Source: a virus
DNA: 21,736 nt
Reading direction: 5' to 3' (one strand)
Virus record (IMG/VR): IMGVR_UViG_3300050026_000046
Coordinates: 1-21,736 of that record
Part shown: positions 4,701-17,414 of the stretch, in pieces
How positions within the stretch are numbered: the first letter of the stretch is position 1
Layout of the letters: each line of letters opens with the position of its first letter
Notes under the pieces: model-generated
Seen by the model: the letters and a program-made list of their open reading frames with translations, nothing else
Told to the model about the DNA's origin: nothing
Database searches by the model: none
Position numbers and translations under genes: made by a program

Positions 4701-5168
4701 CTATACTCCAGTGACCGTGATCAGGTCGTTTCCGTCGCGCCGACTTGTTAGCAATTGATCCATTTCGTCAGTGAATTGCGCTTCCGCTTCTTCCACTGTC
4801 TTTGCGTTAGATGGAAAAATCATAGTGATTTCAGTTGGGCCAATGGTCACATAGACCTGCTTTCGCCCCGCGCTCGCTGGCATCACCTGATACCCCTCCA
4901 GCGAATACCACTTGTCGCCCGCGAAAACACAGCACCGACCATTTACCACCAGCATCGTCGGGATCTTGATTAGTACGCTAGTGATCAGCATCCCCGCAGC
5001 TAGGCGGCACGTTCTGGAATACATCCCAGCATGCAAGACGTGTTCCATCTGCACTTGAAGCGTGTGCTCGTGAGGTCTAACCCTGGCCTCTAGCGACTTG
5101 ATTTTCTCGATTACGTCAGGCGGTGCAGAGGGAAGCGTGTTGCCTTGAACCAATAGTTCTTCACTCAT
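4701..5168 (-). CDS. Conserved podovirus protein, probable cupin-like fold
   Basis: 155 aa from the ATG at 5166-5168. I chose this start because its ATGA overlaps the stop of the acetyltransferase gene by four bases; a start five codons earlier (5183) is possible but less economical. The N-terminus has a short helix (VIEKIKSLEARV). The body from about residue 40 is a series of beta strands (HAGMYSRTCRLAAGMLITSVLIKIPTMLV split by turns, then YQVMPASAGRKQVYVTIG), reading like a double-stranded beta-helix/cupin. It ends in an acidic segment (AKTVEEAEAQFTDE). I recall this arrangement, including the PASAGRKQ and AKTVEEAE segments, from hypothetical proteins of podovirus structural operons. No function is known to me. 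The fold is inferred only from strand pattern. Confidence 0.8.
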   Translation of the reverse strand: MSEELLVQGNTLPSAPPDVIEKIKSLEARVRPHEHTLQVQMEHVLHAGMYSRTCRLAAGMLITSVLIKIPTMLVVNGRCCVFAGDKWYSLEGYQVMPASAGRKQVYVTIGPTEITMIFPSNAKTVEEAEAQFTDEMDQLLTSRRDGNDLITVTGV

Positions 5169-5611
5169 TGGATATGCCTGCAAAACACGCTATTAGTGCG
5201 CCGGTATGGCTTCAGCAAGGACAGCAGTTTTTCCAATTGGCTTCCGGTCGGTGCGCTGTACAGTATCGCTACGCATTCCTTCGACTTGGCGAACTTCTCA
5301 ATTGCCGACATTAAATCAAGTCCAGTGTTTCCGGTTCGGTGTTTCTTGGCCACAAATAGGCTTTCCACGGTAGCAATCTTCTTGCCGTAGTGCGGAAGAA
5401 CGTACGTCAGTTCCGCCGCAAAGCCAACCAGTTCATCACCGTGAAACGCGCCGAATGTATGAAACATCCCCGAACTTTCCATCATGGCGTACATAACGGA
5501 CTGGGGAGATGCCTCGCCAATCTCAGGTATAGAACACTCCGCAGCGTACTCCGCAAGCAGGTCGCCAGCTTCCAGAATAGAGGCGTAGGGTATCTGTCGA
5601 ATGCTCACCAT
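5165..5611 (-). CDS. GNAT-family N-acetyltransferase
   Basis: 148 aa. The layout is that of a GNAT acetyltransferase: an N-terminal helix (SILEAGDLLAEYAAE), a central beta strand pair (GMFHTFGAFHGDELVGFAAELTYVLP), then strand beta4 plus the acetyl-CoA pyrophosphate loop (ATVESLFVAKKHRTGNTGLDLMSAIEKFA), matching the R-x-x-G-x-G/A-type motif A loosely, and a final strand (CVAILYSAP). Its ATG overlaps the preceding stop by seven bases and its stop overlaps the next start by four, so it is tightly embedded in the tail operon. Acetyltransferases in this position occur in other podovirus structural modules. The substrate is unknown; a virion protein or a host target are both possible. Confidence 0.85.
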   Translation of the reverse strand: MVSIRQIPYASILEAGDLLAEYAAECSIPEIGEASPQSVMYAMMESSGMFHTFGAFHGDELVGFAAELTYVLPHYGKKIATVESLFVAKKHRTGNTGLDLMSAIEKFAKSKECVAILYSAPTGSQLEKLLSLLKPYRRTNSVFCRHIQ

Positions 5612-5844
5612 TGCCCCTTTGCGTATCTCGCCCAGGTGTTCTTATCTGTGCAGACGTAAAGGTAATTGGAATCATAGGCAAGCTGGCCGGGAGTACCGCC
5701 CGCCGCCGCACTTGCTGGCGCGGTCACAATCTGAGGCGCTGCGTTGACGGCTGACGTGAGCGGAGAATAGAACCTCTGCCACTCAGAACTTACCGTTCCG
5801 GCATCATTGCTGTGGGGCGCTCGATATGGAGGATTAGGAATCAT
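5605..5844 (-). CDS. Small conserved virion-region protein (79 aa)
   Basis: 79 aa. The C-terminal half reads GGTPGQLAYDSNYLYVCTDKNTWARYAKGQW, split here as a Gly-Thr-Pro-Gly turn, a YDSNYLYVC strand and a W-R strand. This short beta-rich motif is familiar from phage tail-fibre and virion-associated proteins, where it ends the chain. The N-terminus (PYRAPHSNDAGTVSSEWQRFY) looks like a short extended arm. The ATG overlaps the nozzle stop by four bases (ATGA). It may be a small virion subunit associated with the nozzle; that role is inferred only from position and motif. Confidence 0.78.
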   Translation of the reverse strand: MIPNPPYRAPHSNDAGTVSSEWQRFYSPLTSAVNAAPQIVTAPASAAAGGTPGQLAYDSNYLYVCTDKNTWARYAKGQW

Positions 5845-7670
5845 GCGATCTGAGCCAGTCTCTTGTTCAGTCGCTGCTGCGGGTCAAATCCCGGAGCAGC
5901 TCTGAGATAAGCGTTGATGATTGTCCATGCGATAGGATCGTCAACCGTCACTTCATACACGCGATCCCTAGACCTTCCGAGCCGACGCCATATACAGCGC
6001 GTTTTATAGGTTCCCGCTTTGCCCGCTGAAACCCAGTGCTCGCTGCTCCACGTCTTGCCGCCGTCATCTGACCAGCGCAACATCATCTTCGGGTCACGCT
6101 GCCCCGCCGTGGCCGGAATGATGGTGATTACTCCATTGAGCACCGCCAGCCCGGTCTGCAACTGCGTTCCGCTCGTGGCCATCTGGAATAGCTGGGGCGC
6201 GGAAGAATCGTAAGCAACCTGCGTGATCTGAAGTACCGGGCCGGGACCAACACCGAATTGCCACGTCACTCCAGCGTTCTGGCCATCGTTGACGATCGGC
6301 GGAAACTGCGCTCCACCAGCAAGCTCTGCATACTGAATCACGCTCGCATCGTCGATTGTCAATTGCCAAGCATTTCCGCTCACATCGGCCAACTGCAACT
6401 GCGTCGGGCCCGCACCCTGTCCCGGGAGCGCCGGAATCGGACCAATACCGACTTCCGCATCAACCTGCATTTCTGCATGGCGAATCCACGCTTGCTCGCT
6501 GGAGATATGCGGCGCGCGGCGTTGCCGTCGAATGTTCGCACCGTTATCCGTCAGAATGGATATGCTCTGCTGATAGATTTTTCCAGAATTCCAATCGCCT
6601 ACAAGGTGTTTCCCAAACGCGAAAGAATGCGTAATGCCGTGCCACATCTCAAAATCATTACCGTTCCGCCGCGCGCGGTCATGCCACAAACCAGTAGCTA
6701 CGTCGTAAACCCACGTCTTGCCAGCGGTTGGGAAGTTCAGCACATAGAAGCTATGCCCGTTCTCCTGATAGGTGTAACCAATAGCGTCAGCTACAGTCGA
6801 GTAGCCATTGAACTCGTTCTCGATAGCGTGATTGCTCACCCTGACAGGGAGGTATCCGTTAGCTCTCCACACCATCGCCTGCCCGCGGTCATCCTGCCCC
6901 AACCAAAAGAAGCTGTTATCGAGCTTCGCGGGACTCCACTGTGCCGCACAACCCTGCTCCATGAACCCGCCGGATACCGGCTGCCAAGGGTTATTCACGT
7001 CGCCAGAGTTGTAATAGAAGGCCGAATGGCCGCCGCCAAGGAAGAACGGCTCACGGAATCCCTGAATCATTCCTACCAGGTTCTCTGGAAACTCCGAAAC
7101 CTCAAACACATACAAATCGCTCCAAGTCGTAGCATCATTTGGGTTCGACATCTGGAACTTATTTGTCCCGCTCAACAGCGCGAGGAACTCACCGTCAGCA
7201 TAAGTAACTTGTGAGATCGGCCCAACTGGGCCAGTCCCGTTGCTCTGTGAGACTTGCTGAAAGGTTCCCGCTGGCACCGTTACGCCGTTTAGCGTCACGT
7301 TCTGAAGATAGAACACATAGATATTTCCGCCGCTCGCAACTAGCAATTGAATCTGGCTTGCTGCCAGCGAGGCCATGCTGAGGTCGTCAGGAAGATTCAA
7401 TCCGATAGCCGTATAGGTTCCATCGGCCATCACCTCGTACAGCGTCGTTCCTACAACGGCAAACATCCGGCCATTGATAGCGAATGTACCGCGCACTGAG
7501 CGCCCCGGAAGCGTGGCGAAGGTAGCAAGCCCCGGCGTGCGATAGAGCACATAGGCCGATTTCCCCATCCCCGACTCAACCGATTCCAGATACCAGTTTC
7601 GGCAAATCTGGCAGTCGGCGAGGACGCTCTCGGATGTATAGCTCGCGCTGCAAAACCCAAATTGCGCCAT
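5841..7670 (-). CDS. Tail nozzle / packaged-DNA stabilisation protein (P22 gp10-like)
   Basis: 609 aa, longer than P22 gp10 (472 aa). Residues about 45-90 (TPGLATFATLPGRSVRG, then FAINGRMFAVVGTTLYEV) are the characteristic opening blade of the phage stabilisation protein family. Further repeated beta motifs with W/F/Y turns follow (SGGNIYVFYLQNV, DGEFLALLSGTNKF, FPTAGKTWVYDVATGLW), consistent with a beta-propeller-like nozzle. In P22 this protein sits below the gp4 adaptor and helps close the DNA channel after packaging. Here it directly follows the gp4-like gene with no spacing (TAA immediately before ATG), the same order as in P22-type modules. The C-terminal region (RDPKMMLRWSDDGGKTWSSEHW) is another typical segment of this family. 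Confidence 0.9.
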   Translation of the reverse strand: MAQFGFCSASYTSESVLADCQICRNWYLESVESGMGKSAYVLYRTPGLATFATLPGRSVRGTFAINGRMFAVVGTTLYEVMADGTYTAIGLNLPDDLSMASLAASQIQLLVASGGNIYVFYLQNVTLNGVTVPAGTFQQVSQSNGTGPVGPISQVTYADGEFLALLSGTNKFQMSNPNDATTWSDLYVFEVSEFPENLVGMIQGFREPFFLGGGHSAFYYNSGDVNNPWQPVSGGFMEQGCAAQWSPAKLDNSFFWLGQDDRGQAMVWRANGYLPVRVSNHAIENEFNGYSTVADAIGYTYQENGHSFYVLNFPTAGKTWVYDVATGLWHDRARRNGNDFEMWHGITHSFAFGKHLVGDWNSGKIYQQSISILTDNGANIRRQRRAPHISSEQAWIRHAEMQVDAEVGIGPIPALPGQGAGPTQLQLADVSGNAWQLTIDDASVIQYAELAGGAQFPPIVNDGQNAGVTWQFGVGPGPVLQITQVAYDSSAPQLFQMATSGTQLQTGLAVLNGVITIIPATAGQRDPKMMLRWSDDGGKTWSSEHWVSAGKAGTYKTRCIWRRLGRSRDRVYEVTVDDPIAWTIINAYLRAAPGFDPQQRLNKRLAQIA

Positions 7671-8447
7671 TTAGTTTCCACGTGTTCCGGTTAAATAATT
7701 CCAATCAGGGATAATTCGCCGACTGCTGCTTTTCGGAAGTCCGCCAGAAAGGTAAATGCGTGGTGGAGGGTCGTTATTGTCCATCACCGTTTTCTTCGCT
7801 TCATTGCGAGCAGCCACCAGTTCTTGACTCGGCTCCATTTGGTCAGAAGGGCACAACTCAATTGCGAGCTGATAGCAGAGGTACTGCCAATATCCAGGCG
7901 GCAGAACCATTGGCATTGAAGGCTTGATGGCTTGCGGGAGGTTGGTAAACATCTCCAACCGAACTGGATAGGCGCTGGTAGGGATGGGCCAGAAGTTCAA
8001 TGTTCCGTTTGGTACGTCGGGAGAATAGTAAACGTACAGCGGAAAATTGTTGGTCAGCGACTTCAGCCGCTCCTGCGCCCACCGCTCCTTGCCGACAACT
8101 TCAATTGGAAGATCCACGCCATTGGGGATGACCACGGATGCCGACTCAAGCCGTACCGGGCGCTGCGCGATAGCGAACGTGGCCCCTGCTGGCCCGATGG
8201 TATGCGGTGCAAGGTTGGGAATGAGGGTATAGAGATTGAACGCAACGGTGTAGATCATCGACCGCCGCGCGCCGAGCATGTCAATTATCCGCTGGAGCTT
8301 GGAAAGTGCCCAGTCCATGTCGTAAGCGTCCAAGTCTTCGCCCGCCGCCAGGTGCCCGATTTCCATATAGGCTGAAGTAATTATCTGGGCCGGAGTAATG
8401 CTTGGCTGCGTATTGCCGATGCTGAACGATTGCGCTGTGCTTGCCAT
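7671..8447 (-). CDS. Head-tail adaptor / tail accessory factor (P22 gp4-like)
   Basis: 258 aa. The N-terminal part (SITPAQIITSAYMEIGHLAAGE, then ALSKLQRIIDMLGARR) has the helix pair and Leu/Ile pattern of the P22 gp4 tail accessory factor, which binds below the portal ring. P22 gp4 is shorter (166 aa); many related podovirus adaptors have a longer beta-rich C-terminal part as here (YVYYSPDVPNGTLNFWPIP, RLEMFTNLPQAI). The ATG at 8445-8447 has a good ribosome site (GGGAGAG, three bases further upstream). It immediately precedes the gp10-like nozzle gene, which supports the assignment. Confidence 0.88.
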   Translation of the reverse strand: MASTAQSFSIGNTQPSITPAQIITSAYMEIGHLAAGEDLDAYDMDWALSKLQRIIDMLGARRSMIYTVAFNLYTLIPNLAPHTIGPAGATFAIAQRPVRLESASVVIPNGVDLPIEVVGKERWAQERLKSLTNNFPLYVYYSPDVPNGTLNFWPIPTSAYPVRLEMFTNLPQAIKPSMPMVLPPGYWQYLCYQLAIELCPSDQMEPSQELVAARNEAKKTVMDNNDPPPRIYLSGGLPKSSSRRIIPDWNYLTGTRGN

Positions 8448-9111: not shown

Positions 9112-10107
9112 TTAGGTGGCGACAATTCCCTTTACGCCGTTGGTGGCAGTGCCACCAGAGACGTAGGTCTGCCCCTTGGTGGTAGCATCTCCAATCGCAG
9201 TGAACCCGTACAAACCGCTGCCGGAGTCAAACGCGAGGATTCCGCCGCAACTAGCAACCATGTGAGCGAACGCGGCAAGCGCGGTGCCCCCGGTGGAGTT
9301 CACTGAGTTGATGGCCTCGCAGCACTTAATGAGTACCCATCGATCCAGCGCGTTGGCAGCGGCAGCCAGTAAAACGTACTGAAGTCCGTCACTTGACCAC
9401 GACAAGAACGTGCAGTTCTCGAACACGTTACGAGCGGCGCTAGAGCTGATCTCTATTGTCGCATTCGCCCCGGTGCGAATAACCGTATCCAGGCCGATAT
9501 TGCAATGGCCAAAGTAGTTCTCTCCAGCGCTCAGAAGAACGCAACGAGAGCCCGCGTCGGTTGCACCGGTGGCATCGCCCATGCCTTCAATGTCGCAATT
9601 GATAAAGGCATTGCGCTGGCCGGAAACCGTCAAACAGATTTCAGCCGCAACCCCAGCCGTGAACCCTTGAAAGAAGCTCAAGTTCTGGAATAGACATCCG
9701 TTGCCGGACACTACAAAGAAATTGGCGAAAGCAGCAGCGGTCGCCAATGGAGCGATACGAGCGCGCTGTGACACCATAGACGGAGCGCAAACACCGATCA
9801 GGTGACAAGCGTTCTTCGCCCAAGTGAACGTAGCGCTGGTTCTGGCGGAACCGGTTGACGTACCGTTACCCTCAAGAACCAGCACATCATTGTTACCGCT
9901 GGTCATGAGGTTGTACCCGGCGGCAAGCGTTTGCACGGCGCTCTTTGGAGACAAGCCAGAATTAACGTCGAGGCCGTTGACCGGATCGACGTAGTACACG
10001 TTGCCAGTCACGCCGAGGCCCATGCGGTTAATGGCCGACTGGATGGCGTTGGCACCGGCGAGCGTGAGTGATCCTAGATTGGGAAGCCCTGCAGGAAATG
10101 AACTCAT
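9112..10107 (-). CDS. Right-handed beta-helix (pectate-lyase-like) virion-region protein
   Basis: 331 aa. Residues about 37-70 (NVYYVDPVNGLDVNSGLSP, then KSAVQTLAAGYNLM) are the classic opening of pectate-lyase-like beta-helix proteins. Short repeating coils with Asn and Cys/Val stacks follow (GCLFQNLSFFQGF, RNAFINCDIEGMG, ENYFGHCNIGLDT, RNVFENCTFLSWS). Unlike its upstream neighbour it has no signal peptide. In phages this fold occurs in tailspikes and in capsid-surface proteins. Its place between the coat gene and the neck genes, rather than at the tail end, favours a head-decoration or surface role, but this is only inferred. No catalytic residues of a specific polysaccharide lyase or hydrolase can be assigned. 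Confidence 0.85.
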   Translation of the reverse strand: MSSFPAGLPNLGSLTLAGANAIQSAINRMGLGVTGNVYYVDPVNGLDVNSGLSPKSAVQTLAAGYNLMTSGNNDVLVLEGNGTSTGSARTSATFTWAKNACHLIGVCAPSMVSQRARIAPLATAAAFANFFVVSGNGCLFQNLSFFQGFTAGVAAEICLTVSGQRNAFINCDIEGMGDATGATDAGSRCVLLSAGENYFGHCNIGLDTVIRTGANATIEISSSAARNVFENCTFLSWSSDGLQYVLLAAAANALDRWVLIKCCEAINSVNSTGGTALAAFAHMVASCGGILAFDSGSGLYGFTAIGDATTKGQTYVSGGTATNGVKGIVAT

Positions 10108-10238: not shown

Positions 10239-11237
10239 TCAATAAAGATACAGATAGGCGCCATTCAAGGTGGTGAAGCTGGTAGGCGGGGTGAAACTCG
10301 GCAACGTGCCGAAGGTTCCAGCCGCGGCAGACTTATAGGTCAGGATGTTGTCCTGATACCCCGTCTTGAGCAGATCAACATAGTCGCCGGTGCCATTGCT
10401 CATCATGCAACCGTAATACTGAGTTGGGCCAACGGCGTAAAACGGAGTAGTGAACGGAAGCGCGGCCCAGGCGTAGTTCGTTCCCGCAACCACCGTTCCC
10501 GCAACTGCGGAATTAGCAAGCAGGTTCCCAGCAGCGTCATACAGTGCATAAATCCATTTGTCGGTGCCGTTGCCAGTGGCTCCAACGTGGACTCCGAAGC
10601 CAGTAATCAACTTGCTGTGCGGCAAGGCGATTTCCGTGCAGTACAACTCGGCTGCAACCGTAGCGGTGCTGGTGCCAAGCGCGGCTCCACCATTCGTCGC
10701 TCCCGGATTCGGAATGGGAAGACGATATTCGGTTGCGCGCGTGGTCTGCCTTGCATCACCGTTCACCCATTGCCCACCAACGCAGTCAGAAATCAGACCG
10801 CTGGTGAACTGAATGCGCGGCAATGCCGGTTCGTTACTTCTGACGCACGAGCCCTGATCAACCGCAGGCCCAACTCCAGACTCTCCAGCGGAGAAGTTTA
10901 CGAGGTACGCCGGGACCACAAAAACCATGGCACCGGACGCATGAGCGTGAGCAGCCGTAGAACCGTAACTGCGAATCACGGAAACGTAAGAACTGTTGAT
11001 CGCGGTGACAAGCTCCAGCTCCCGGTCAACGTACAGCCAGGTCGTGGTGTTGGGGGTAATCCCGCTGTATGCGGTAACGCCAGTGGTGCTGGTAAGCGCA
11101 ATGGAGCTGTCCGAAACGCCCTGTGCAGCCGAAAGCGTGGTATTGGTGAGAATTACCTGAGCCTGAGCCGGGGCGGTGAAAAGCGAAAGCGCCAGCACCA
11201 TACCCAGCAGAGAGAGTACGATAGAGAGTTTCTTCAT
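10239..11237 (-). CDS. Secreted-type structural protein with Sec signal peptide, two beta domains
   Basis: 332 aa. The N-terminus is a textbook signal peptide: MKK, a hydrophobic core (IVLSLLGMVLALSLF), and a cleavage site after A26 in TAPAQA|QV. There is no lipobox cysteine. Residues about 27-110 form a beta domain containing LYVDRELELVTAI and then a V-I-R-S-YGST and AHASGA segment, a pattern I know from phage structural proteins. Residues about 170-332 form a second beta-rich domain (GFGVHVGATGNGTDKWIYALYD, shown here within its first 20 or so residues, and YYGCMM) resembling a jelly-roll. Four cysteines (C131, C152, C200, C277) could form disulfides after export. The ATG has a good AAAGGA ribosome site. 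It is expressed with capsid genes, yet its leader targets the membrane. Function unknown. Confidence 0.88.
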   Translation of the reverse strand: MKKLSIVLSLLGMVLALSLFTAPAQAQVILTNTTLSAAQGVSDSSIALTSTTGVTAYSGITPNTTTWLYVDRELELVTAINSSYVSVIRSYGSTAAHAHASGAMVFVVPAYLVNFSAGESGVGPAVDQGSCVRSNEPALPRIQFTSGLISDCVGGQWVNGDARQTTRATEYRLPIPNPGATNGGAALGTSTATVAAELYCTEIALPHSKLITGFGVHVGATGNGTDKWIYALYDAAGNLLANSAVAGTVVAGTNYAWAALPFTTPFYAVGPTQYYGCMMSNGTGDYVDLLKTGYQDNILTYKSAAAGTFGTLPSFTPPTSFTTLNGAYLYLY

Positions 11238-11248
11238 GTTCGTTTCCT

Positions 11249-11506
11249 TTAACCCGCCTTACGGCGTCGGTTGAGATTCTTAATCGCGTATGTTACCCAT
11301 CGGCAATTGTCAGGTTCGTAACTGCGGTCATTGTCCCGGCGATCAATGGTGAGTCGTGCCCTTCCAGTGCGCCGTTCATAGCCGTTTGCTAGTGCCCAGT
11401 CATAGAAGGTCTGAAAATAACACCTCCACTCATCGCACACCGTAATTCCGCGACCGCCATAATCCGGATATTTCCTGTTTTTCGGATTGCAGCATCGCTG
11501 AATCAT
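11249..11506 (-). CDS. HNH-like (YGGRGI-type) phage protein, 5'-shortened
   Basis: 85 aa from the ATG at 11504-11506. It contains YGGRGITVCDEW, TIDRRDND and YEPDNCRWVT followed by NLNRRR, the signature of a widespread phage family related to HNH homing endonucleases; the last block corresponds to the HNH core with the catalytic His replaced (IDRRDN instead of DHxDxN). Family members normally have more residues before the RCxNPxN motif. In this gene the homologous frame does continue upstream but has no usable start (see separate entry). A GGGAGG lies only two bases before the ATG, too close for good initiation. It sits directly after the coat gene. It is probably a decayed mobile gene; a short expressed protein is possible. 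Confidence 0.7.
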   Translation of the reverse strand: MIQRCCNPKNRKYPDYGGRGITVCDEWRCYFQTFYDWALANGYERRTGRARLTIDRRDNDRSYEPDNCRWVTYAIKNLNRRRKAG

Positions 11507-11635: not shown

Positions 11636-12874
11636 TCAGGCACCTGCAACCGCAACAACTCCGTTATCCTGATACATATTTCCAAAGCCGTAAGGAATAT
11701 CCATACGGTGAGTCATGCAGTATTGCTTCTGGTCCCAGGCGACGATGTAGGTGATTGACATGCCGGTATCCGGGTCGCTGATCTGTTCAGCCTTCTCCAC
11801 CATCTTCGGAGGATCGGGGTACTTTCCACCAACAATGGCAAATGCGTGCTCAGATAGTGCAAGCGACACAACGCCAGCGGCGCCGGACGGGTTAGCGGTT
11901 CCAGGCCACATGGTCAAAGCTGCGTTGGCTGCGGGCAGAGCGTTCACGTTCTGGTAAGGCGAACCGGGACCATAGATAGCAGGCAGGACGACGAGCGTGT
12001 CGTTGCCACCGGTCAGGGTAAGCGGCTGGGCTGCTACGAAGTTCATCAGGCCGAGTGAACCCTGAGCGCCGGTCATCGGGTTGACAGCGTACACGCCAGC
12101 AACGGAGAACTTGTCGCCAGCCTTGATCGTATCCAGCGCGGTTCCGGTGACGGTAAGCTGGTTGCCAGACTGACCCGCACCAACGATGGTCAGGCCATGA
12201 GTTGCGGCGGTCCCAGCGGTGAAGCGCTGGAGCGAGGTCGAGGCGTACACGTCAAAGCCAGCAATCTGCAACAGGATGCCTTCGCGGTACATCTTGGCCA
12301 CGTCGGACATTGGGTTGAAAATCTGGTAATTGTTGGCAATGAAGGTTTCGATGATCGAAGGAGAGATAATCAGGTTACGCTCTCCACCTTTCGGACAGCC
12401 CTTTTCGTCCAGGCGCCGCTGTGAAGCCAACGCGAAGTCGATGGTCGTCGGATCAGCGCCAAGCGTGCCAACCACGTTCGAGGTATTCAGCATCGCAAAC
12501 GTCGCGGCATCATAATCAATCTTGGTGGCCAGTTTGCGGGCAAACGGATGGAGGTAGTTTTCCACCAATTCCTTTTCGCTGCGTTCCAGGCTGACCAAAC
12601 GCTCAAACTGGTCGAACTGGAAGTGCTCGCCGACCATGTTATTGATCGTCGCGGTGGTTACAACGCGGTTAATGTCCTGCGGCTGGTAGCCCAATCCAGA
12701 GGTGGTATTCAACATCGCTGGGCGCTTGATGGTAACGGTGGCGCCGATGGGGAACTCCTGCTCGTAGTCCTCCCTCCAGTCAGTGTTGAATAGCGCGGCA
12801 ACCTTCAAGTCGTTCTGAAGGAGCGCGAGGATCGTAGTAGACACGAAATTTGTGGTGGCGAAATTGTTTGGCAT
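11636..12874 (-). CDS. Major capsid (coat) protein, P22 gp5-like
   Basis: 412 aa, close to P22 coat (430 aa). It begins with a helix (TTILALLQNDLKVAALF), followed by a beta-rich region (ATVTIKRPAML). The HK97-like spine helix is rich in charged residues (SLERSEKELVENYLHPFARK). The segment IKAGDKFSVAGVYAVNP corresponds to the P22 coat insertion-domain segment with GDKISFAGV, and the NVNALPAANAALTMW stretch lies in the A-domain-like C-terminal half. The gene follows the scaffold gene, as in P22. The ATG is preceded by AAGGGA at a 7-base spacing, a good ribosome site. As the most abundant virion protein it would assemble around the scaffold on the portal-nucleated procapsid. Confidence 0.9.
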   Translation of the reverse strand: MPNNFATTNFVSTTILALLQNDLKVAALFNTDWREDYEQEFPIGATVTIKRPAMLNTTSGLGYQPQDINRVVTTATINNMVGEHFQFDQFERLVSLERSEKELVENYLHPFARKLATKIDYDAATFAMLNTSNVVGTLGADPTTIDFALASQRRLDEKGCPKGGERNLIISPSIIETFIANNYQIFNPMSDVAKMYREGILLQIAGFDVYASTSLQRFTAGTAATHGLTIVGAGQSGNQLTVTGTALDTIKAGDKFSVAGVYAVNPMTGAQGSLGLMNFVAAQPLTLTGGNDTLVVLPAIYGPGSPYQNVNALPAANAALTMWPGTANPSGAAGVVSLALSEHAFAIVGGKYPDPPKMVEKAEQISDPDTGMSITYIVAWDQKQYCMTHRMDIPYGFGNMYQDNGVVAVAGA

Positions 12875-14179: not shown

Positions 14180-14212
14180 CAAACTGCGATTAGCTCTTGC
14201 GCCGAGCAGGCG

Positions 14213-14434
14213 ATGGTTCTAAACTTCACAATTATGGCGATGCTTCTAGTTCAGGGCGTTCGTGACAAGACCGGGAACATCATTACGCAATTGTTCCGTT
14301 GCCGAGGCTGTCACCGTGATTTTGTGCCTACGGGCATTGTTTCAATTGCCGATGGCGATGCTTGTCCATTTTGCAATTCTAAACACTTTGAAGCAGTTAC
14401 ATTTGTTCAGCCGAGCAACAAAAAACCGATCTAG
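14213..14434 (+). CDS. Small zinc-ribbon protein
   Basis: 73 aa from ATG 14213; ATGs at 14234 or 14240 would give 66 or 64 aa and are equally plausible, since no start has a strong ribosome site. Two CxxC knuckles (CRGC and CPFC), separated by about 17 residues, with a strand pattern between them (DFVPTGIVSIADGDA), are typical of a zinc ribbon. It is the first gene of the plus-strand cassette inserted between portal and scaffold, opposite to every neighbour. The local base composition is low in G+C: 24 of 60 bases at 14341-14400, against 37 of 60 at 12001-12060 in the coat gene. Function unknown; nucleic-acid or protein binding is the usual role of such modules. Confidence 0.7.
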   Translation: MVLNFTIMAMLLVQGVRDKTGNIITQLFRCRGCHRDFVPTGIVSIADGDACPFCNSKHFEAVTFVQPSNKKPI

Positions 14435-14444
14435 GAGACACTTC

Positions 14445-14687
14445 ATGGATCATGCCGTCGATTCAGATGCGCTCTATTACTGTGAGATTTTGGATTATGT
14501 GGATCCAACGGCGGAACCAACTGCTGTAGTCATCCACACCGCACTAGAAACAATCCGCTCCAATGCTAGATCCGAACTTGGAGACAACGTGTTTCTTGAT
14601 AACATCGTTTGGTGGTTCGTTGGCACGCCGCATTTCTCCTATGTACTTCGTGCCCGCGCCGTAAAATTAAAACCAATCGATTTGTAA
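14445..14687 (+). CDS. Unknown 80-aa protein of the plus-strand cassette
   Basis: 80 aa from ATG 14445. I chose this start because AGGAGA lies six bases upstream and the preceding zinc-ribbon gene stops ten bases before; the frame is open further upstream (to 14262), but that would overlap the zinc-ribbon gene almost completely. I do not recognise the protein. It is acidic at the N-terminus (DHAVDSDALYYCEILDYVD), contains an aromatic segment (NIVWWFVGTPHFSYVLR), and ends basic (RAVKLKPIDL). It is likely co-transcribed with the zinc-ribbon gene. The 155-base gap that follows (14688-14842) has only a weak hairpin (14738-14757). Confidence 0.68.
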   Translation: MDHAVDSDALYYCEILDYVDPTAEPTAVVIHTALETIRSNARSELGDNVFLDNIVWWFVGTPHFSYVLRARAVKLKPIDL

Positions 14688-14842
14688 TGCGATCCGTGGT
14701 CAACCGGCGCTTCCCGGATACTCAGTTACACAGGGTTAGCGGTTTCATTGTGCCGCTTTACCGTCAACCGCCTCTTTGAGGTGAATAACGAGAAGGTCAA
14801 TCGCAATACAACGGTCCACATAAGAAATATGATCGGGTAAAA

Positions 14843-15199
14843 ATGCTCCCGGAATATGCGATCTGGACCGGAATTAAAACGCGATGTCTTAACTCCCATT
14901 CAACCAGTTTTGCAAACTATGGCGGAAGGGGGATCACTATTTGCGAACGATGGCTTGATTTCTCTTGCTTTTTCTCTGACGTTGGACCTCGCCCGACGAA
15001 ACTCCATAGTATCGACCGAAAAGACAATAGCGGTAATTACGAGCCCGACAACTGCCGATGGGCTACCTCCAGAGAACAAGCACTAAATAGAAGACCGGGT
15101 AAGCGCGGTAAATATAAGAAACATTGCGACCGGAGTGCAATAGCTACAGCAAGAGAAGCTAGGAAACGGGCTGCCCGGTTGGCGGCGGCGATTGGTTAG
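14843..15199 (+). CDS. HNH-like (YGGRGI-type) phage protein
   Basis: 118 aa. The order of motifs is YAIWTGIKTRCLN, YGGRGITICERW, SIDRKDN, YEPDNCRWAT and EQALNRR, followed by a Lys/Arg/Ala-rich tail (ARKRAARLAA). This is the same family as the decayed gene after the coat protein, and here the core is intact. As in that relative, the HNH first His is replaced (IDRKDN), so nuclease activity is uncertain; the protein may bind DNA without cutting it. The start is weakly supported (no clear ribosome site). Its last 41 bases (15159-15199) overlap the 3' end of the portal gene in antisense. It probably arrived as a mobile or moron gene with the rest of the plus-strand cassette. Confidence 0.75.
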   Translation: MLPEYAIWTGIKTRCLNSHSTSFANYGGRGITICERWLDFSCFFSDVGPRPTKLHSIDRKDNSGNYEPDNCRWATSREQALNRRPGKRGKYKKHCDRSAIATAREARKRAARLAAAIG

Positions 15200-17414
15200 G
15201 CTCTTGCACAGACTGTAACGCATTCTGTTGCGCGTTTTGCTGAGACATATTCCTTTCGTGAGATTGATCTATCGCTTGCAGTGCGACCTCGTGACTCTGA
15301 CTGTGGAATTGTTTAACCAGGTCAGCAATGAACTCCTGCCGCTCGCTTGCACTCTGAGCCTTCGTGCTCACTTCTGCAACCGCAATCTTCGTTTCTCGGT
15401 CGAGGTTCGCCTGTGTCACCATCTGCGTCATTGCAACCGTGTGTTGGGCCTCGATCTCCTTCAGCTTCATGATGTGGTCAGCCGTCTTGGCCTTCGCGTC
15501 GAACTGCAATTGCTGAAGTACTTGGCCTTGCTGCTGCAATGCCTGTTGAGCTTGCTGGAGCTTCGCTTGGAACTGGCCGATGATCGGTTTGGCCTCGGCT
15601 GGGATATCAGCCTGCGTTGGATTGATCGTTTCAGCCAGTGCGTCTACTTCCGGGCCAAGATTGCGCATCTTCAAGGATTGCGCCATGATCGCAGCCGCCG
15701 GACTTCCGGGAGGTGGAATGTTGCCCATGTTCTGCATGATCTGGTCTGCTACATCACCAGCCGCTTCGCGCTCCGATTCCGTGCTTGGACCGCTTGATAC
15801 CGTTACATCAAACTCGCCATTGTCCACTACCAAGTAATCGTCTTTTTCCTTGATGTCATCTGGAATCTGGTCAAGCTGATCTTTTGTGGTGACATACATC
15901 AGCCCATGTTTACCATCTTCACGCATTGCGGAAACGTGGCGCTGCGTGTCTATGCACTTGGTGATCAACTCATTCAGTTGCCGCCCGCGATTCTTCAAGC
16001 ATCGCTCGAAGTTGTCAGTGAAGTGGAAGCTCCCCACCTGCTCCTGCGTTTGAATCTTACCGAGCGCAACCCCTGATTTCTGATTCTGCTCCTGTGCGCT
16101 GGTGGGCATGGGCATAATACCCATGGCCGACTGCACAGCCCTTCTCCAGGCCTCACGCGACATTGCGTAAGCCTGCGAGTTCGGAGCCCATATCGGTTTC
16201 TGTGGTGGCGGAAGTGGCGCACCAGCACCGTCCGGCATAGGGTCATATTCCAGGAACGCTATAGGCTCACTGGTGCAGTTTTCCCAAGCCTTACGGGCTG
16301 CGTCTGGAATCTGTCCCTTAGCTACAACCCATGGCGTCAGCGGAATAGATAGAAACTCGATAGCTTCCTGCGAAGCAATGAACGCCAGCATCGCCTGAGA
16401 ATCGCGCGCTGTGCGCACCAGCGAGGCGAAGTGCCGCTCCGCTAACTCACCCTTGCGGGTCCAATACTCTTTGCCGATGCCAACAACGATCGGAATCCAC
16501 GAGCCCGGCCATTCGTTGCGCTCAAGAATCTCCACGCCATTAGTGATGTACTGCACAACCCGGCACGGGCGAACCTTGCGGCGCCGGCCAACCTTCTTTG
16601 GCTTGCCGTACTCGCGTGCCCAGTATTCTAAGAGAACTACTTCTTTGTCGTGGAAGAACTGTGCGGCGGTTCTCTTGTCCGCATCGGTGAAATCGTGTTT
16701 CGTTGCCCACGGATATTTGCGCTTGAAATCTCTCTCTGGAATCGAGCTTGCAACGATACAGATATCTTGGTCGGAGAAGTCCATTTCCTGTGCGTTCGGG
16801 TCAGGATAGACGCTGAATCCATCGCGGATTGGCTTGACCCACGGCGTCACCTCGTCTGTATCGTCCGAGACATACTTCGTAGTGATTCGCTCGAATCCCC
16901 AACCGCAGTTGATCATGCCCTCAAATAGAACGGTGTCGGCGGCAAGCGCGTTCGCTTCGTGTTCAATGCCGCGGATAATTGCTGCCCTCCGCTTGGCGTC
17001 CTTGTCCGTCGCCCCAGTGCCGCGCGGAATCAGCTTGACCGCCCGCTTCTGCTCTCGGAGATTGTTGATTGCCTGGTTAAGGTACTGACTGATTTCGTCC
17101 GGGCAGATACACGGCAGCCCAGCAGCCTCACGGCGCATCCGGCTTGAATCATCCCATGGATCACCCGACACAAAGCGCATGTCGATTGCCGCTTCGTCGC
17201 GGATGATCTTCCAATAGCTCTGGAAGTAGCTGTAGTCGTCTCTGATGCGCTTCAGCAGTTCTGGGTCTTGTTCAAGGATCGATTCGCTATCGTTTGCCCG
17301 CTCATCAGGTGATTCCAGCGCGGTCACATCCTCAGAAGCTTTTGGTGATGGCGCAGGTGTGGCGTCAATCTCTGGAGGTGCAGCACCGTCTCTGAATTGG
17401 TCAATTACGCCCAT
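15159..17414 (-). CDS. Portal protein, P22 gp1-like
   Basis: 751 aa, close to P22 portal (725 aa). The N-terminal helices (LLKRIRDDYSYFQSYWKIIRD) and the following region (MRFVSGDPWDD, then LPCICPDEISQYLNQAINNL) are characteristic of the P22 portal family, as are the DGFSVYPDPNAQEMDFSD and DICIVASSIPERDFKRKYP blocks. The last 140 residues are Gln/Ala-rich helix (QQALQQQGQVLQQLQF), matching the long C-terminal barrel of P22-type portals that reaches into the capsid. It would form the dodecameric DNA channel, nucleate the procapsid and dock terminase. The ATG follows the preceding stop by three bases. The 3' end is overlapped in antisense by the HNH-like gene, and the expected adjacent scaffold is displaced by about 1 kb. 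Confidence 0.92.
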   Translation of the reverse strand: MGVIDQFRDGAAPPEIDATPAPSPKASEDVTALESPDERANDSESILEQDPELLKRIRDDYSYFQSYWKIIRDEAAIDMRFVSGDPWDDSSRMRREAAGLPCICPDEISQYLNQAINNLREQKRAVKLIPRGTGATDKDAKRRAAIIRGIEHEANALAADTVLFEGMINCGWGFERITTKYVSDDTDEVTPWVKPIRDGFSVYPDPNAQEMDFSDQDICIVASSIPERDFKRKYPWATKHDFTDADKRTAAQFFHDKEVVLLEYWAREYGKPKKVGRRRKVRPCRVVQYITNGVEILERNEWPGSWIPIVVGIGKEYWTRKGELAERHFASLVRTARDSQAMLAFIASQEAIEFLSIPLTPWVVAKGQIPDAARKAWENCTSEPIAFLEYDPMPDGAGAPLPPPQKPIWAPNSQAYAMSREAWRRAVQSAMGIMPMPTSAQEQNQKSGVALGKIQTQEQVGSFHFTDNFERCLKNRGRQLNELITKCIDTQRHVSAMREDGKHGLMYVTTKDQLDQIPDDIKEKDDYLVVDNGEFDVTVSSGPSTESEREAAGDVADQIMQNMGNIPPPGSPAAAIMAQSLKMRNLGPEVDALAETINPTQADIPAEAKPIIGQFQAKLQQAQQALQQQGQVLQQLQFDAKAKTADHIMKLKEIEAQHTVAMTQMVTQANLDRETKIAVAEVSTKAQSASERQEFIADLVKQFHSQSHEVALQAIDQSHERNMSQQNAQQNALQSVQEPNQSPPPTGQPVS

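Follow-up and report, generated by a model that had tools for sequence, protein, structure and literature searches.

A predicted Sec leader on a coat-adjacent, virion-surface-type protein in a lineage of soil podoviruses with P22-type heads

Introduction

Tailed phages are taught to assemble entirely in the cytoplasm, and capsid decoration proteins are usually, though not by strict definition, made and kept there. Phage-coded products that leave the cytoplasm are known from other settings: lambda Lom and T5 Llp carry a signal peptide and either reside in the envelope or exert their effect there. We know of no leader on Dec of phage L, nor of any report of an exported coat-adjacent protein in phages of the kind described here, and a search of the open-licence literature for decoration or tail fibre proteins that are exported returned nothing relevant. 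Once P22-type capsids have assembled and matured, Dec is added to their exterior, with a high affinity in vitro (PMC6449081). In a full-text search of a review of decoration proteins (PMC7602432), signal peptide, disulphide and cysteine were unmentioned.

A cultured phage that can be compared directly is Xanthomonas phage PBR31, which has a relative of the coat protein discussed below (28% identity) and the same gene order from the terminase to the internal proteins and tail spike. It differs in that its tail spike and its coat-adjacent protein are both leaderless.

The locus described here lies in a virus record of IMG/VR that is 21,736 bases long (the window, meaning the whole stretch analysed) and whose minus strand carries an operon of head and tail genes. 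Beside the coat gene is an ORF of 332 aa (10239-11237, minus strand, ATG start) whose product begins with a Sec-type leader. The original prediction regarded an exported protein of structural type as a paradox, and this was correctly seen. The leader itself is confirmed, and the case for it is stronger than originally put. The coat-adjacent export feature is real, unusual and common to a phage lineage, and the protein is best classed as one of virion-surface type for which an export step would not have been expected. Whereas Dec, among the cement proteins, has an OB fold, the present protein is built differently, and its universal Sec leader predicts a departure from the cytoplasmic residence that is usual for the decoration class. 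It also differs from Lom and Llp, which are envelope proteins with no strict coat linkage and no virion-type domains.

The gene and its leader

The operon runs from the terminase through a P22-type portal (PF16510), the scaffold and the P22-type coat (PF11651) to an HNH-like insert and the exported gene, after which come a beta-helix gene, a gene of 181 aa and the two neck genes, Ad3 and Hc3. The coat protein, the upstream operon partner, is encoded at 11636-12874 (minus strand; PF11651 E 1.6e-24; phrog_283; synteny), and the HNH endonuclease-like ORF between it and the exported gene, recognised by reading of the sequence only, occupies 11249-11506 (minus strand). The downstream boundary of the slot is the head-tail adaptor (gp4/Ad3-like; 7671-8447, minus strand; phrog_12985 E 1.7e-33; synteny), for which the match to Ad3 itself is weak (E 0.0038); head closure Hc3 (gp10-like) lies at 5841-7670 (minus strand; phrog_578 E 2e-97). 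The originally proposed position between coat and neck genes thus holds, as does the claim that the gene has its own ribosome site, a Shine-Dalgarno sequence AAGGAAA (11243-11249, minus strand) 5 nt before the ATG.

The predicted signal peptide comprises residues 1-26 (11160-11237, minus strand), reads MKKLSIVLSLLGMVLALSLFTAPAQA and is followed by QV, with cleavage predicted between A26 and Q27 as had been claimed. It contains two lysines, a hydrophobic core without charge and an AxA site, which are the positive n-region, uncharged hydrophobic core and AxA-type site of a Sec (signal peptidase I) leader. These features were scored by a custom, fixed rule that demands a basic n-region, an uncharged hydrophobic stretch and small residues at -3 and -1. 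When the non-overlapping ORFs of at least 60 aa in the window were scanned, the 332-aa protein was the sole leader-positive one.

Conservation in relatives

Scans of viral contigs provided 40 relatives first, then 80 loci via the coat, from which a set of 70 non-redundant relatives with complete 5' ends (<95% identical) was used for the leader counts. Sixty-six of the 70 passed the rule and leaders were visible by eye in the remaining four, so that the leader properties are kept in 70/70; among homologues of the other window genes, 0/288 passed. The mean pairwise identity is 28.7% in the leader against 52.4% in the mature part. Residue +1 is Q in 36 of 37 members, and at -1 all 37 have A, G or S; the first eight leader residues hold about 2.2 K/R and acidic residues are almost absent. 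A sequence that varies while its properties stay constant looks like a signal peptide selected for those properties. Leaderless relatives, the result that would speak against the prediction, were sought and none occurred among the 70, and a start at the mature residue (about 27) was found in no relative.

The four cysteines claimed for the protein are present at positions 131, 152, 200 and 277, and all are conserved. In the mature part of the 70 relatives, four cysteines were counted in 62, two in four, six in three and three in one; the number is therefore even in 69 of the 70, as would be expected for disulphides. Taken together, predicted Sec export of the coat-adjacent protein is well supported.

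The 332-aa protein gave no tblastn match in GenBank phages. A cellular origin of the gene was considered and rejected, since the single genome match was a contig of Acidicapsa dinghuensis that shows phage gene order. In the order to which Acidicapsa belongs, a true or close coat was found in three of 397 genomes, each of which also carries the exported gene next to the coat and the spike N-domain (see below) nearby. Where hosts of the lineage are known, the window phage's own host apart, they are Acidobacteriota.

Domains and fold

Searches of Pfam and PHROGs with the 332-aa protein alone gave weak matches only. The mature N-terminal beta domain (residues 27-110; 10908-11159, minus strand) is related to phage tail protein domains: phrog_1101, a tail protein, was matched in 28 of 37 members, and among PDB entries the matches were to the minor tail protein 8vjh (E 3e-7) and the tip attachment protein 8rk3 (E 0.0025). 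It is followed by a cysteine hairpin of conserved columns (residues 129-158; 10764-10853, minus strand; GSC...SDCxGGQWV), in which C131 and C152 may form a disulphide, judging from the cysteine parity. The C-terminal beta-sandwich (residues 170-332; 10242-10730, minus strand), which holds C200 and C277, is DUF4082-like by Pfam. The DUF4082 (PF13313) score of the 332-aa protein is 18.2 bits, below the curated cut-off of 28.4, and E values of 0.01 or less were obtained in 9 of 37 members, the best being 6e-5.

The AlphaFold model of the beta-sandwich has a pLDDT of 82. Foldseek searches with it suggest a likeness to the Bxb1 tail tip (9d93_Pa), the Douge central fibre and 9jwb_Z (E 3e-5, TM 0.53 on the target); tail tip proteins match too, and the fold matches are partial, with a TM of about 0.35 on the query. 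Chain Z of 9jwb is A-4L ORF25, which is resolved in the asymmetric unit of the cyanophage A4 capsid. Its beta-sandwich is partly similar to that of the exported protein, but it is leaderless, has 202 aa and one cysteine, and is encoded beside tail fibre genes, away from the coat.

By our own reading, at least five types of C-terminal domain replace one another in the relatives, and the leader and N-terminal part are retained. With its virion-type domains and this exchange, the protein looks like an export-tagged fibre or decoration protein of the virion, built from modules. The coat-adjacent protein of PBR31 was tried as a homologue of one of the swapped C-terminal domains and rejected; it was the best of 571 frames, yet the E value was 0.015.

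The slot beside the coat

In coat relatives without the exported gene, the same slot is taken by D145, a protein that is about 145 aa long and has no leader. Each of the two comes directly after a coat of one and the same family, but D145 also lacks conserved cysteines and is not homologous to the exported family, for which hhalign gave a probability of 0.5%. Among redundant loci, 97 contained the exported gene only and 23 D145 only; none contained both and none neither. A coat tree built from 79 rows requires the two genes to have replaced each other at least three times, three of these switches being well supported. Eleven of 13 D145 members match phrog_673, annotated 'head scaffolding protein' (best E 1.5e-32), and the best PDB match of the D145 model is a modest one to the Pa223 capsid spike (E 1.7e-3), which is consistent with a putative role at the capsid. 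Since the two proteins never co-occur, have been swapped at least three times and D145 is of head type, the slot beside the coat is probably a capsid-surface slot.

Linkage to the coat and expression

The coat is the nearest upstream window-type gene in every coat-containing locus, with or without the HNH insert, and the exported gene thus shows the linkage to the coat in the head operon that marks capsid decoration genes. The gap between the two has a median of 59 nt and is often below 20 nt. With the sigma70 consensus, the only one searched, promoter-like signals between them did not exceed those in shuffles, and a terminator-like site was found in 1 of 96 cases. A short gap without an excess of promoter-like signals and almost without terminators indicates a late gene that is expressed along with the coat. 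Expression independent of the late operon, from a promoter belonging to the gene itself, would mark a superinfection exclusion gene or moron; it was considered and rejected on the same figures.

Leaders on tail spikes and fibres

The window ends within a gp16-like gene and includes no spike of its own phage. In metagenomic relatives, the spike N-domain VTFxDxNGVPLAGGCVFTY was preceded by a leader in 16 of 16 loci, a set biased to the Cys form because the scan pattern required it (GGCVFTY). The N-domain relatives in cultured PBR31, X14 and P26218 and in two assembled podoviruses begin at the domain and are leaderless. The PBR31 spike, which also begins at the N-domain, is homologous to the leader-bearing spikes and is the receptor-binding protein according to its authors (PMC10975493). 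Directly after this leaderless spike, PBR31 orf35 (L203 24674-25483, plus strand; 'putative structural protein') has a Sec-like leader. Tail-spike-type proteins with Sec leaders were seen at 14186-16303 (plus strand) of L051, the prophage of Acidicapsa dinghuensis 4GSKX, and in L003, L015, L016, L021, L027, L043 and L148-L163; most have the N-domain cysteine (GGCVFTY), whereas the homologues in cultured phages have neither leader nor cysteine.

In most of the relatives examined, spike leaders are thus present. Seven genomes (G398, G399, G401, G403, G404, G406 and G407) have leaders on most of their appendage genes, with the spikes bearing them in G398 and G399. Behind the ejection proteins, almost every gene carries a leader in the contigs G401, G403, G404 and G407 (38-44 kb) and in G406 (34 kb); the leader-rich genes of these five correspond to loci L176, L180, L181 and L185-L193. 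The homologues of the ejection proteins themselves are leaderless and nearly free of cysteine. Since G404 and G406 are D145 phages, leader-bearing spikes extend wider than the exported coat-adjacent protein. A claim that all fibres are exported would be too strong: no leaders were seen on the genes behind the ejection proteins in G405 and G408, and a fibre-like gene near Hc3 is leaderless in some relatives. No phage can do without a receptor-binding protein; as nearly all spike candidates in several genomes are leader-bearing, exported spikes probably reach the virion.

Behind the fibre genes of G406, a holin-like ORF and an Rz1-like lipoprotein were recognised by reading, so that lysis looks ordinary. 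Weak GDSL-esterase matches were seen in G401 (832 aa) and G399 (1920 aa, L175).

Proposed route and alternatives

The best explanation, which we consider to have an even chance of being correct, is that proteins of the virion surface leave the cytoplasm by export, undergo oxidation in the periplasm and join the virion when the cell lyses. A late protein of virion-surface type, from a podovirus with P22-type head genes, would be produced together with the coat. Sec would carry it to the periplasm, where the leader would be cleaved between A26 and Q27 and oxidation would form two disulphides, while the capsids fill with DNA in the cytoplasm. Lysis would mix both pools, and the protein would then bind to the exterior of the mature capsid, which is the most likely site, or to the tail, with the constant N-terminal part as anchor and the exchangeable C-terminal beta-sandwich facing outward. 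Docking at lysis would be the simplest route for exported spikes, and the same route is here applied to the coat-adjacent protein. Against the capsid site counts the N-terminal domain, which resembles tail and not capsid proteins; against late docking counts the dilution at lysis, which would disfavour assembly outside the cell. Of the possibilities originally listed for the exported protein, addition to virions after export or lysis is favoured by the coat linkage, slot exclusion, C-terminal fold and spike leaders, whereas a block to superinfection fits poorly in timing with a late gene co-transcribed with the coat.

The protein could also be exported and never enter the virion. It would then coat the infected cell or be shed and mask receptors or surface polysaccharide, which would keep progeny off debris and block superinfection; we regard this as unlikely. 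The leader and cysteines agree with such a role, an exchange of the C-terminal beta-sandwich for other types, at least five in all, would be expected of a binder of variable surface ligands, and T5 Llp and lambda Lom are exported phage products. However, the strict coupling to the coat and the exclusion of a head-type protein would be superfluous for it, and expression without a separate or early promoter would come too late for exclusion.

That the protein is instead an exported tail or fibre component that joins the tail machine at lysis, the coat adjacency serving expression only, appears improbable. It would account for the N-terminal matches to phrog_1101, 8vjh and 8rk3 and for the likeness of the C-terminal fold to the tail tip of Bxb1 (9d93_Pa) and to the central fibre of Douge, but not for the position right after the coat or the mutual exclusion with the phrog_673 head-type D145. 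There is scarcely any probability left for a hydrophobic N-terminus unused for export, one that belongs to an internal or head-fibre protein and acts on membranes or as a capsid anchor. It would suit virions that assemble in the cytoplasm, and export itself is predicted from sequence; yet the classic n, h and c regions, an AxA site followed by Q, a leader free in sequence and fixed in properties, the even cysteine count and the leaders that these phages carry on spike and fibre proteins unrelated to this one all argue against it.

If attachment at lysis is extended to the whole lineage, these tailed phages with P22-type heads, which are widespread in metagenomes and occur as prophages of Acidobacteriota, may have a two-compartment virion in which heads are cytoplasmic and Sec-exported, disulphide-bonded surface proteins, spikes and fibres dock at lysis; this broader proposal stands at a little short of even. 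Were it true, the final assembly of surface proteins and receptor-binding spikes would take place outside the cell, which would explain the cysteine-rich spikes and open tailed-phage appendages to periplasmic disulphide chemistry, and appendages could be mixed between phages at lysis. The annotation of receptor-binding proteins would also be affected, as a leader is easily misread as the mark of a 'host secreted protein'.

Other genes in the operon

A few further features of the window were observed. An acetyltransferase-like gene, GNAT-type by reading, lies within the tail operon (5165-5611, minus strand); PBR31 orf028, annotated as an acetyltransferase, has a similar place and no visible likeness to it. 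A second HNH-like ORF (14843-15199, plus strand) is found on the opposite strand in the interval between scaffold and portal, where it overlaps the 3' end of the portal gene. The gene that adjoins the exported gene (9112-10107, minus strand) encodes a beta-helix-like protein without a leader, and it has moved, since relatives with 63% identity are located upstream of the portal in L040 and L046.
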